64,000 nt of DNA from Tahibacter aquaticus (lineage in GTDB: Bacteria; Pseudomonadota; Gammaproteobacteria; Xanthomonadales; Rhodanobacteraceae), in assembly GCF_004363655.1 (NCBI RefSeq), contig NZ_SNZH01000019.1, positions 24,001 through 88,000 of the forward strand, given 5' to 3'. Every line of letters begins with the position of its first letter. Within the stretch, counting starts at the first letter, position 1. Shown here piece after piece: positions 6,777 through 53,947 of this stretch. Under the pieces are notes generated by a model. That model ran no database searches. It was not told where the DNA came from and saw only the letters and a program-made list of their open reading frames with translations. A program made the translations under genes and the position numbers.

Positions 6777-6816
6777 CTCACCTGCCCCCAGCGAGCTGGG
6801 GGGAGAGGGGCCCAAA
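6777..6816. repeat. GGGGAGAGGG-type palindromic repeat
   Basis: 'TGCCCCCAGCGAGCTGGGGG' followed by GAGAGGGGCCC forms an inverted unit. It resembles the units at 6948-6990, 51009-51082 and 51140-51255. Such C/T-rich and G/A-rich runs recur in intergenic DNA of Xanthomonadales. Confidence 0.6.
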
Positions 6817-6947: not shown

Positions 6948-6990
6948 CGGACTGCGTCGGGGAGAGGGTCGAGGGTGAGGGGACCGCCCT
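6948..6990. repeat. GGGGAGAGGG-type repeat, second copy
   Basis: The unit reads 'GACTGCGTCGGGGAGAGGGT' and then CGAGGGTGAGGGG. The same 'GACGCAGTC' and 'GGGTGAGGG' blocks occur in the copies at 51009-51255, so these are members of one family. Confidence 0.6.
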
Positions 6991-48841: not shown

Positions 48842-50008
48842 ATGAACCAACCCGTGCCTGCGCTGCGCCTGTCCAGTTTCTACTTCATGTATTACGCCAT
48901 CCTCGGCGCATTCACCCCGTACTGGAGCCTGTTTCTCAAGGACCACGGCCAGGATGCCGCCGCCATCGGCGTGCTCATGAGCCTGTGGTATGCCACGCGC
49001 ATCGTCGCGCCCAGCAGCTGGAACTGGCTGGCCGGGCGCTCGTCGCGGCCGATACGCTGGCTGCAGCTGGGCTGCTGCGTCAGCGTGGCCACGTTCTGCC
49101 TGTTCCTGCTGCCGCTGCAGTTCAGCGGGCTGTTCCTGGCCATGTGCATCTTCTGCTTTTTCCATAACGCAACCATGCCGCAATTCGAGGCGATTACCCT
49201 GTCGCATCTGCACGGCATCAGCGAGCGCTATGGCGCCATCCGCGTCTGGGGTTCGATCGGCTTCATCGGCGTGGTCGCGCTGTTCGGCCTGCTGCTGGAC
49301 CACGTGCCCATCGGCTACCTGCCGCTGCTGATGCTGCCGCTGCTGCTGGGCCTGACCACGTCGGCCTTCGTCAACGACTACGGCCCGGCCCAGCGCAGCG
49401 CCCTGCCGGCGGCCGGCGCCGAGTTCCGCCGCCGCCTGCGCCAGCCGGAAGTCGTCGCGTTCTTCGTCGTCTGCCTGCTGATGCAGATCTCGTTCGGGCC
49501 GCTGTATACATTTTTCGCGCTATACCTGGAGCAGCACGGCTACAAGCCCTCGGCACTGGGCATGTTCTGGTCCATCGGCGTGGCGGTGGAAGTGCTGGTG
49601 TTCTTCTATTCGCCGCGGCTGTTCCTGCGCTGGCCGGCGCAGACCGTGGTGCTGGTCGCCGTTGCCAGTGCCGCCGTGCGATGGCTGGTGACGGCGCTGT
49701 TTCCCGATTCGGTGCCACTGATGATCCTGGCCCAGATCACCCACGCGATCAATTTCGCCGCCTTCTTCGCCGGTGCCATGCAGCTGATGGCACAGTACTT
49801 TCCGGGGCCACTGGGGGGACATGGCCAGGGCGTGTTCTACGGCTTTTCCTCCGGCGTCGGCGGCGCTCTGGGTGCACTGATCGCCGGCCAGGCCTGGCGC
49901 ATCGGCGGCGGCAAGCTCGCCTTCGAAGTGGGCGCGGCCTTTGCCGCGGTCAGCGCGCTGATCGCCTGGCGCTGGCTGCGGCCACCGCGCGCGGCAACTC
50001 AGGCTTGA
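48842..50008 (+). CDS. MFS transporter (PPP/HcaT-like)
   Basis: A 388-residue inner-membrane carrier with about 12 helices and no soluble domains. The N-terminus 'LRLSSFYFMYYAILGAFTPY' and 'YGAIRVWGSIGFIGVVALFG' match the MFS_1-like group that includes the phenylpropionate permease HcaT. The substrate is not known. It lies after xdhC but has its own 250-base upstream region with a REP-like pair, so a role in purine uptake is only a guess. Its last bases overlap the convergent epmA stop by 10 bases. Confidence 0.85.
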   Translation: MNQPVPALRLSSFYFMYYAILGAFTPYWSLFLKDHGQDAAAIGVLMSLWYATRIVAPSSWNWLAGRSSRPIRWLQLGCCVSVATFCLFLLPLQFSGLFLAMCIFCFFHNATMPQFEAITLSHLHGISERYGAIRVWGSIGFIGVVALFGLLLDHVPIGYLPLLMLPLLLGLTTSAFVNDYGPAQRSALPAAGAEFRRRLRQPEVVAFFVVCLLMQISFGPLYTFFALYLEQHGYKPSALGMFWSIGVAVEVLVFFYSPRLFLRWPAQTVVLVAVASAAVRWLVTALFPDSVPLMILAQITHAINFAAFFAGAMQLMAQYFPGPLGGHGQGVFYGFSSGVGGALGALIAGQAWRIGGGKLAFEVGAAFAAVSALIAWRWLRPPRAATQA

Positions 50009-51576
50009 GCGAACGGAAACGCGATCACCTCGCGCAGATCGTCGGTATTCGCCAGGCACATCAGCAAACGGTCCACGCCCAGGGCAACACCGGCGCAGGC
50101 CGGCATCTGGCCGAGGACGGCGAGCAGGTTCTCGTCCAGCGGCACTTCCGCCAGGCCGCGTTCGCGCCGCCGCGCGTTGTCGCGTTCGAAGCGTGCGCGC
50201 TGTTCGGTGGCGTCGTTGAGTTCGTGATAGCCGTTGGCGAGTTCGTACGCGCCCAGGTACAGCTCGAAGCGTTCCGCCACGGGATCGGCGTCGGCACGGA
50301 TGCGGGCGAGCGCGCATTGGCTCGCCGGATAGTCGTGGATCAGGGTGATTCGATCGTGGGGAAACTGCGGCTGGATGCGGTGGGTGATCAGCAGGTCCAG
50401 CCAGTCGTCGCGCCCCAGCCCTTCGGCACCGATGGAAAATTCGGCCAGAGGTGCGGCGAGTTCGTCCTGCGTGGCGGTGAAGGGATCCAGGCCCAGCGCC
50501 TCGACGAAGAGTTCGCGATAGGTATAGGTGACGCTGTGCAGTTCGCGCCCGGCCAGGGCCAGTGCAGCGCGTACGAGATCGCTGGTTTCCTGCATCAGTT
50601 GACGATGGTCCCAGCCGACGCGGTACCACTCCAGCATGCTGAATTCCGGATTGTGGCGGCGCCCAGCTTCGCCGTTGCGGAATACGCGGCCTAGCTCGTA
50701 GCAGTCGCCGACACCGGCGGCGAGCAGGCGCTTGAGCGGGAACTCCGGCGAGGTACGCAGCCAGCGCAGCGGCGCACCGGCATCGCTGTGGCCGGAGAAA
50801 CAGGTGCTGAAGCTTTCGATATTGGGGTCGGTGTTGCCGGCCTGGGACAGCAGCGGTGTTTCTACTTCTAGTATTTTTCTTTTGTGGAAAAAGTTTCTGA
50901 CCAGGTGGTTCAGGGCGGCGCGCAGGTGGAGATTGGGATGGGTTTTGCTGGAATCGGGGAAGGCAACAGGTGCCGACGAGAATTGAGGATGCTGCAGAAA
51001 ACCCGAGGGTGAGGGCGATTCGAGCGGCTGCCCCCTCACCCAACCCTCTCCCCCATGCGGGGCTTGGGGGAGAGGGCTCAAGACAGGCTGAGGTTGAGTA
51101 GTCGACTGCTCGGCCATTCGACGCTCGATATGCTCACGGCTCCCTCTCCCCCGACGCAGTCGAGGGGGGAGGAGGCGACGTACAGAGCCATCCGGCTCTG
51201 TCGCCTCCGAACGCCCAACGGGCCGGAGAGGGCTGGGGTGAGAGGGCGGTGGTGAGGCCAGCTCCGCTGCAATCGCAGCGATCACATCGTCTACGCGAGC
51301 CAGTACATCATTGTTCCAAAAACGCACAACGCGAAAACCAAAACCCTGCAAAGTCCGCGAACGCTTTTCGTCATAAGCCTGGTCCTGTGCATGGTGTCCA
51401 CCATCCAGCTCGACCACGAGCCACCGCTCCAGGCAGGCAAAATCGACGATATACCCCGCCACCCGATGCTGGCGCCGGAATTTCGCGCCGAGCTGACTCA
51501 GGCGCAAGCGTTCCCACACCACATGCTCCGCATCGGTAGGTTCCTTGCGCATTCCCTTCGCATGCTCGTCCGTCAT
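49999..51576 (-). CDS. epmA: EF-P lysine ligase EpmA fused in frame to an N-terminal DUF559 endonuclease-like domain
   Basis: One open frame with no stop encodes both parts (525 residues from the ATG at 51576, which has GAGGCG upstream). Residues 1-107 form a DUF559 domain. Residues 108-218 translate two repeat units (Pro/Ser/Gly/Arg-rich). The remainder is EpmA, a class II lysyl-tRNA synthetase paralogue that beta-lysylates elongation factor P: 'FFHKRKILEVETPLLS', 'RTSPEFPLKRLLAAGVGDCY', 'ELGRVFRNGEAGRRHNPEFS' and 'GVALGVDRLLMC'. Usual EpmA length is about 325. The only in-frame ATG close to the EpmA part is 51117 (MAEQSTTQP), itself between the two repeats. Either a true fusion or internal initiation at 51117 is possible. 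Confidence 0.8.
   Translation of the reverse strand: MTDEHAKGMRKEPTDAEHVVWERLRLSQLGAKFRRQHRVAGYIVDFACLERWLVVELDGGHHAQDQAYDEKRSRTLQGFGFRVVRFWNNDVLARVDDVIAAIAAELASPPPSHPSPLRPVGRSEATEPDGSVRRLLPPRLRRGRGSREHIERRMAEQSTTQPQPVLSPLPQAPHGGEGWVRGQPLESPSPSGFLQHPQFSSAPVAFPDSSKTHPNLHLRAALNHLVRNFFHKRKILEVETPLLSQAGNTDPNIESFSTCFSGHSDAGAPLRWLRTSPEFPLKRLLAAGVGDCYELGRVFRNGEAGRRHNPEFSMLEWYRVGWDHRQLMQETSDLVRAALALAGRELHSVTYTYRELFVEALGLDPFTATQDELAAPLAEFSIGAEGLGRDDWLDLLITHRIQPQFPHDRITLIHDYPASQCALARIRADADPVAERFELYLGAYELANGYHELNDATEQRARFERDNARRRERGLAEVPLDENLLAVLGQMPACAGVALGVDRLLMCLANTDDLREVIAFPFAQA
51009..51082. repeat. GGGGAGAGGG-type repeat inside the epmA frame
   Basis: CCCCTCACCCAACCCTCTCC and CTTGGGGGAGAGGG form an inverted unit (51034-51076) plus a flanking GGGTGAGGG. 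It is translated in frame as 'VLSPLPQAPHGGEGWVRG'. It is related to the intergenic copies at 6777-6990. Confidence 0.7.
51140..51255. repeat. Second GGGGAGAGGG-type repeat, directly after the DUF559 part
   Basis: CTCCCTCTCCCCCGACGCAG at one end and GGAGAGGGCTGGGGTGAGAG at the other enclose a stem GGAGGCGAC...GTCGCCTCC with the inner arms CAGAGCC and GGCTCTG. In the epmA frame it is translated as 'PSHPSPLRPVGRSEATEPDG' and onward. Confidence 0.7.
51256..51576 (-). other. DUF559 (Vsr-like restriction-endonuclease fold) domain segment of the fused frame
   Basis: Residues 1-107 of the fused frame carry the complete DUF559 pattern: 'FRRQHRVAGYIVDFACLERW' (Asp45), 'LVVELDGGHH' (Glu56, Asp58, His61-62), then 'YDEKRSRTLQGFGFRVVRFW' and 'NNDVL'. 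The Asp and Glu-X-Asp arrangement matches the catalytic core of Vsr-type nucleases. Elsewhere such domains are usually small stand-alone genes of unknown role. Confidence 0.85.
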
Positions 51577-51688
51577 CGCCTCGCCTTGACCGCTTCGACC
51601 TGACCGCGCCGCATCGCGGCCACCCTCATCGCCTCGCTGCATCACCCTCGCCGCCTTACTCGAACACAGCGCACTCGCGGCTCAGCAC

Positions 51689-53947
<2,259 letters not shown>

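Follow-up and report, generated by a model that had tools for sequence, protein, structure and literature searches.

Does an epmA gene whose reading frame runs without a stop through two inverted palindromes into a small nuclease domain mark a chance junction, or a genetic element that has settled at the 5′ end of the gene? The question is raised by a 64,000-nucleotide stretch of Tahibacter aquaticus DNA (contig NZ_SNZH01000019.1, positions 24,001 to 88,000; hereafter, the window), in which a 548-codon open reading frame (ORF) with a GTG start (49999–51645, minus strand) joins a DUF559 domain to the core of EpmA, an enzyme that modifies EF-P. We read the DUF559 gene and the palindromic repeats that border it, here termed R, as one genetic element, a system resembling RAYT/REPIN that is built on an unrelated nuclease of the Vsr fold, and we give this reading a probability of about 0.6. 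The DUF559-R unit is widespread and, among the systems compared below, works most like RAYT/REPIN.

The order of parts within the ORF is DUF559-R1-R2-EpmA. The DUF559 domain (51253–51576, minus strand, from the Met codon at 51576) is a match to PF04480 (residues 27–129, E 3.8e-33, 114 bits against a curated cut-off of 20.6), and the EpmA core (49999–50910, minus strand), of the EF-P lysyltransferase type and in the same frame, is a match to the class II synthetase family PF00152 (residues 233–545, E 2.7e-43). With residues counted from the Met codon at 51576, Glu56 and Asp58 show no variation in an alignment of 63 DUF559 sequences that includes the window's own; Asp45 has a conservation of at least 90%, and His62 is also conserved. 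R1 (51142–51246, minus strand) lies directly 3′ of the DUF559 domain, with its tail facing DUF559 and its palindrome outward, and R2 (51031–51076, plus strand) is a second copy inverted with respect to R1; the two form an inverted doublet (R-spacer-rcR, where rc stands for reverse complement). A long palindrome unlike R, GGAGGCGAC...GTCGCCTCC (51171–51208, no strand assigned), is nested in R1 and splits it, which gives the impression of a repeat inserted into a repeat. Between DUF559 and EpmA there is a single in-frame ATG (51117), located between R1 and R2; a TTG at 51081 and a GTG at 51039, inside R2, are further in-frame start codons for EpmA. A preliminary description of the locus had proposed that the EpmA frame is open through two repeats into DUF559, with Asp45, Glu56 and Asp58 as key residues, and both points were confirmed; its single nearby ATG for EpmA was also found, with the two other start codons as a refinement.

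The common family form of R follows the plan CCCTCACCCC-(2–3 nt)-CCCTCTCCCC-loop-GGGGAGAGGG, in which the inner tail CCCTCACCCC is on the gene side and the palindrome is outermost, and variants at other loci (CCCTCTCC, CCCTCCCC, CCTTCTCC and others) retain this plan. The arm GGGGAGAGGG occurs five times in the 64-kb window, against 0.07 copies expected; the 7.27-Mb genome contains 62 copies, whereas the reversed pattern is found 13 times. Two solo R-type arms of the window, at 6800–6809 and, 159 nt away, at 6959–6968 (both plus strand), are far from any DUF559 gene, and solo copies elsewhere in the genome are partly arranged as R-spacer-rcR doublets (e.g., locus L011), like the DUF559-EpmA linker. 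At many of the loci displayed, R starts 9–15 nt past the DUF559 domain (19–50 nt in others), and the DUF559 frame terminates within R or shortly after it. An Rfam search of the window gave no match at the gathering score. No GTAG or CGTC tag was seen beside R in the copies displayed, which were viewed by eye with no systematic count; these are tag names of RAYT/REPIN palindromes (PMC3733652).

The association of R with DUF559 is strong and is not confined to this locus. In 40 loci of the family (20 best matches and 20 picked for long frames; L063–L102), the density of R 9-mers was 16.6/kb within 100 nt of DUF559, 4.4/kb at 100–200 nt, and on average approximately 0.1/kb beyond 300 nt (0.03–0.21 by bin). 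An R 9-mer was present within 150 nt at 23 of 30 DUF559 loci and at none of 30 loci of Y1_Tnp, the RAYT-type transposase family, with short loci counted as full length. Hairpins flanked both sides of the gene at 91 of 129 family DUF559 loci (control anchors, 48 of 888) and at 45 of 73 named DUF559 loci (controls, 16 of 628); a stricter R pattern was found 3′ of DUF559 at 109 of 193 loci and at 12 of 3015 controls. A set of 80 named loci, the best of a longer list and some of them from the same family, included 76 testable loci, and the flanking inverted repeats of 61 of these exceeded the 99th percentile of 2280 random anchors. The named loci span several phyla and include contigs labelled Chloroflexi, Nitrospirae, Planctomycete-type and Omnitrophota. 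The earlier supposition that DUF559 genes are often beside such repeats is upheld by the densities, the flank tests and the downstream pattern alike. At a Legionella anisa locus (L134), a very long inverted repeat around DUF559 (alignment score 125) contains R-type arms.

The presence of the nuclease gene also predicts how many copies of R a genome holds. A DUF559 match (E up to 0.001) was found in 98 of 147 family genomes, and the number of R copies, counted with the pattern CCTCACCCN{2,4}CCCTCTCC, had a median of 25.5 in these genomes against 0 in the 49 genomes without a match; the link holds inside genera (0/2000 permutations, 13 mixed genera). Y1_Tnp, which is likewise present in 98 of the 147 genomes, shows no such overall relation (R median 10 vs 12, p 0.69). 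On these overall counts and on the flanks, we reject a transposase of the RAYT type as the principal mover of R, although a weak within-genus trend, discussed below, remains. Within the host genus, R copies number 24, 66 and 216 in the three genomes that carry the unit at epmA and 0, 0, 1, 0 and 1 in the five that lack it; two of these five carry an R-less DUF559 gene at another place. One family genome (G017) contains sixteen Y1_Tnp matches with nearly equal scores, which are probably copies of one IS200-type element.

Comparison of single sites with and without the unit indicates that it undergoes gain and loss. In the window, its upstream neighbor is ligA (51689–53866, minus strand), which ends 43 nt before the start of the 548-codon ORF. 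Among eight genomes of the host genus, three have the unit between ligA and epmA and, in the other five, ligA directly meets epmA; the comparison of the epmA 5′ region with close relatives lacking the unit, for which the preliminary description had asked, comes out in its favor. At a second site, between hppD and hmgA, DUF559 immediately precedes hmgA in at least 21 genomes, and in three of these the domain is interrupted by a stop (the adjacency counts for epmA and hmgA were read by eye from coordinates and are lower bounds). Of 123 other genomes with hmgA, 40 were examined at this site, and their classes were assigned by eye, the strict hairpin pattern matching only 4 of the 40 (control, 16/1000): 11 were clean, four had one hairpin, five had a gene-less doublet (some decayed), three retained DUF559 in decayed form (the only such remnants among the 40; E 6e-14 to 6e-9 for the domain) and 17 had another arrangement. 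A third site lies within a Mur-ligase-like ORF that is present in five of 16 genomes of one genus; two of these ORFs hold an in-frame rcR-DUF559-R unit, and in the other three that point is occupied by one hairpin or its remnant, which could be either an insertion target or the scar of a loss. No target-site duplication was established at the sites compared. Further in-frame units lie within genes that resemble restriction-modification genes and 5′ of a HemW-like gene, as named from their translations. In two related methyltransferase-like ORFs (L094 and L332), viewed by eye, a DUF559 unit is at a common point, and a gene-less in-frame repeat insert is farther upstream, at another common point.

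We infer from this genomic pattern how DUF559 may act on R and by which route copies may arise. Two inverted copies of R border the gene, or trail it as an R-spacer-rcR doublet, and DUF559 would recognize the folded palindrome and nick or cut at R or at a matching target. Repair would then copy an R unit into the site, sometimes with the gene along, while recombination between two hairpins would remove the gene and leave one hairpin. Solo copies and doublets would constitute a non-autonomous population maintained by DUF559, by analogy with REPINs, which are thought to be maintained by RAYTs. Stop codons are rare in R, which allows units to be retained within reading frames, and at ligA-epmA one unit may have become a lasting in-frame extension, giving either a DUF559-EpmA fusion protein or a frame that is kept for expression.

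Whether anything is fused at all is the point on which an alternative fares best, namely that the joint frame is a chance read-through and that EpmA starts at an ATG or GTG near the repeats. The scarcity of stop codons in R would let frames run on easily, and start codons are indeed available both between and inside the repeats. An EpmA match was found in 146 of the 147 family genomes, and at least 14 genomes have DUF559 directly 5′ of epmA. In 12 of these 14 pairs the two are in frame and stop-free, at 12 different distances between the DUF559 and EpmA matches (154–358 nt); of the two out-of-frame pairs, one is from a 78%-complete draft. If each pair had an independent 1/3 chance, such an outcome would have P ~8e-5; shared ancestry weakens this figure. 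In addition, 10 of the 12 in-frame pairs had originally been selected for their long frames, although their adjacency was subsequently read from coordinates. We take the counts to indicate that the DUF559-EpmA frame is kept, which falls short of proving a fusion protein. Chance read-through, which the preliminary description had named as the outcome that would overturn its reading, is disfavored because 12 of 14 adjacent pairs are in frame, and we consider it unlikely, while still the least unlikely of the alternatives. In one genome (L323, G141:C161), the DUF559-EpmA linker contains a long CCAAAG-type simple repeat.

Several observations weigh against treating DUF559 and R as one element. The empty ligA-epmA sites carry no repeat, and therefore insertion into R is not general. 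The flank test was failed by 15 of the 76 named loci. No R accompanies the second DUF559 gene of the host genome, which precedes a glyoxalase-like gene (L002, C6:141817-142116), or the DUF559 genes of genomes G014 and G065, which precede a similar reading frame (L267 and L265). Eight of the 98 genomes with DUF559 have no R by the pattern, and six of the 49 without DUF559 have at least 10 copies. The number of R copies shows a weak within-genus trend with Y1_Tnp (99/2000 permutations, 14 mixed genera). The link between R and nuclease type, described below, is modest, and a control stretch is linked too, if more weakly. The 47 pairs of DUF559 genes at different sites of one genome (30 genomes) reach a top identity of only 66%. 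Finally, the authors who describe VsrA, a DUF559 protein of Caulobacter, interpret it as an enzyme of mismatch repair (PMC12907096).

Some of these points would be expected if R merely hitchhiked, that is, if another enzyme or recombination spread the repeats and DUF559 only tolerated or attracted them at its ends: R occurs in some genomes without DUF559, some DUF559 genes lack R, and Y1_Tnp retains its weak trend. On the other hand, DUF559 predicts the number of R copies within genera far more strongly than Y1_Tnp does, and the latter does not predict it overall. The close spacing of R behind the domain in many loci, with the frame ending in or just after R, also speaks against hitchhiking. 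Moreover, the type of R tracks the nuclease: between loci at different sites, the more alike the nucleases, the more alike the R copies (rho 0.235, 0/300 Mantel permutations), also within genomes (rho 0.30, p 0.04, 47 pairs), and the rho of 0.247 for R compares with 0.118 for a control stretch 220–300 nt away in the same pairs. We consider hitchhiking improbable.

If DUF559 and R do form one element, it does not look like one that jumps at present. An autonomous insertion sequence would be expected to leave nearly identical copies at separate sites of a genome; none were found among the 47 pairs, and the unit as a recent jumper is rejected on the divergence of its different-site copies. Because within-genome copies diverge to this extent, recent whole-unit copying is not seen, apart from a tandem array in genome G029, where three DUF559-repeat units stand before epmA at a spacing of 501 bp (L099, C3:275814-277118), two of them 97% identical and the third 76%. 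The 112 family loci used for the comparison of R with nuclease type group into 32 site clusters, and 37, 16 and 13 loci make up the three largest clusters of the full set; this distribution suggests, short of proof, that the DUF559 gene mostly stays put, with an occasional change of site. The idea of a mobile or repeat-propagating unit in which the nuclease acts on the repeat, as first proposed, is partly supported, by the repeat association and the presence or absence of the unit at single sites; active jumping is not supported, and the action of the nuclease on the repeat is a conjecture.

A less likely alternative, which we regard as quite improbable, is that DUF559 is a host mismatch-repair nuclease like Vsr, with R arrays as processing sites or scars and no mobile element. 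Its fold is of the Vsr type, and Caulobacter VsrA drives an SOS response, for which it is required in cells that lack ScmA (PMC12907096). However, 49 of the 147 family genomes have no DUF559 match, and empty, solo-repeat and decayed states coexist at one site, as in an element. That R was selected around DUF559 to terminate transcription, or as hairpins that stabilize mRNA, is scarcely credible: R forms strong G+C palindromes at the end of the DUF559 frame in many loci, yet it is found on both sides of the gene and within open frames, it recurs mainly in genomes with DUF559, and no T run was seen after it by eye in the loci displayed.

It is tempting to extend the reading of DUF559 and R as one element to a far wider group, in which DUF559 would drive a superfamily of interspersed palindromes across phyla. 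This superfamily would be a counterpart of RAYT/REPIN with an independent, Vsr-fold enzyme; its units would also enter reading frames and fuse with host enzymes, among them EpmA and HemW-like and restriction-modification proteins, and the orphan BoxC repeats of Escherichia coli, together with YcjD, would belong to it. We hold this extension tentatively, at slightly less than even odds. YcjD of E. coli K-12 is annotated as DUF559 and is encoded between sapF and fabI; a near match was found in 3365 of 5426 E. coli genomes. R-type repeats are present 3′ of ycjD in two E. coli records, and one strain contains 14 matches to the R pattern (control, 0), of which two are at the ycjD locus. These repeats may be BoxC. 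BoxC is 56 bp long with 32 copies, according to a table in PMC2267715. Just 5′ of ycjD, one record (L211, 3937–3979) contains a perfect 17-bp inverted repeat unlike R. The ycjD site was unusable as a test of insertion, since efflux genes occupy that place in the two strains without ycjD that were examined, and therefore loss, gain and exchange are indistinguishable there. The efflux genes at sapF-fabI have been described as the eef operon (PMC12817139).

To our knowledge, no enzyme has so far been assigned to short palindromic repeats of the R kind. DUF559 would be a candidate for it, the origin of these repeats would be testable in E. coli K-12 via ycjD, and the DUF559-R unit may account for a class of bacterial repeats. 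If the reading is true, a second, unrelated type of nuclease maintains a repeat population, and the RAYT/REPIN lifestyle has arisen more than once. Such elements can, furthermore, add an in-frame nuclease domain to core enzymes, here EpmA. No description that ties DUF559 to interspersed palindromes was found in the titles, abstract openings and passages covered, which did not extend to subscription papers or preprints; one paper of the literature searched contains both “DUF559” and “palindromic” (PMC8861277). In other reports, a transposase/DUF559 segment is a recombination hotspot in Legionella (PMC12308824), and a DUF559 gene is among the expression changes in a Deinococcus methylase mutant (PMC6712171).

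Comparison with known systems begins with the enzyme. DUF559 is predicted to be a small Vsr-fold nuclease with conserved candidate active-site residues. With an AlphaFold model (pLDDT 84) as query, the only fold matches at E <0.001 were the DUF559-type structure 3hrl (3.8e-7) and the EDxHD homing endonuclease I-Bth0305I (3r3p; 5.2e-5 and 3e-4), followed by PvuRts1I (0.003), mitoribosomal proteins (0.007–0.015) and Vsr (1vsr; 0.016, rank 8). A sequence search of the PDB agrees, with 3hrl and I-Bth0305I (E 2.2e-4) on top, and its matches with E >0.2 were treated as chance. The PDB matches of both sequence and model are Vsr-type nucleases, unlike the Y1 HUH tyrosine transposase.

The active-site residues of the Vsr repair endonuclease differ from those of DUF559, and so does the genomic setting; the likeness consists of the weak fold match to 1vsr. 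A YcjD profile also picks up Vsr (PMC1189080). I-Bth0305I is the nearest solved relative after 3hrl, and a cyanobacterial DUF559 gene has been assigned to the EDxHD homing endonucleases (PMC9403480). At one site, some alleles are empty, some have a single hairpin and some are filled, a series compatible with change in either direction; DUF559 is bordered by inverted palindromes with solo copies elsewhere in the genome, and no intron or intein was noticed in the loci read. Rickettsia palindromic elements are palindromic repeats that lie in frame inside protein genes, from which the DUF559 insert differs in that it can carry a nuclease gene. The closest parallel is RAYT/REPIN, in which a low-copy gene lies beside palindromes thought to be moved by RAYT, with solo copies and inverted doublets (PMC3116915). 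DUF559 shares with this system a low-copy nuclease gene bordered by inverted palindromes (not in all of its members), solo repeats and inverted doublets across the genome, and several divergent copies per genome. It differs in having a Vsr-type fold in place of a Y1 enzyme, and Y1_Tnp predicts the number of R copies poorly; thus, because it has no Y1 enzyme, the DUF559-R unit is not a member of RAYT/REPIN but resembles it in how it is arranged and spread through genomes.

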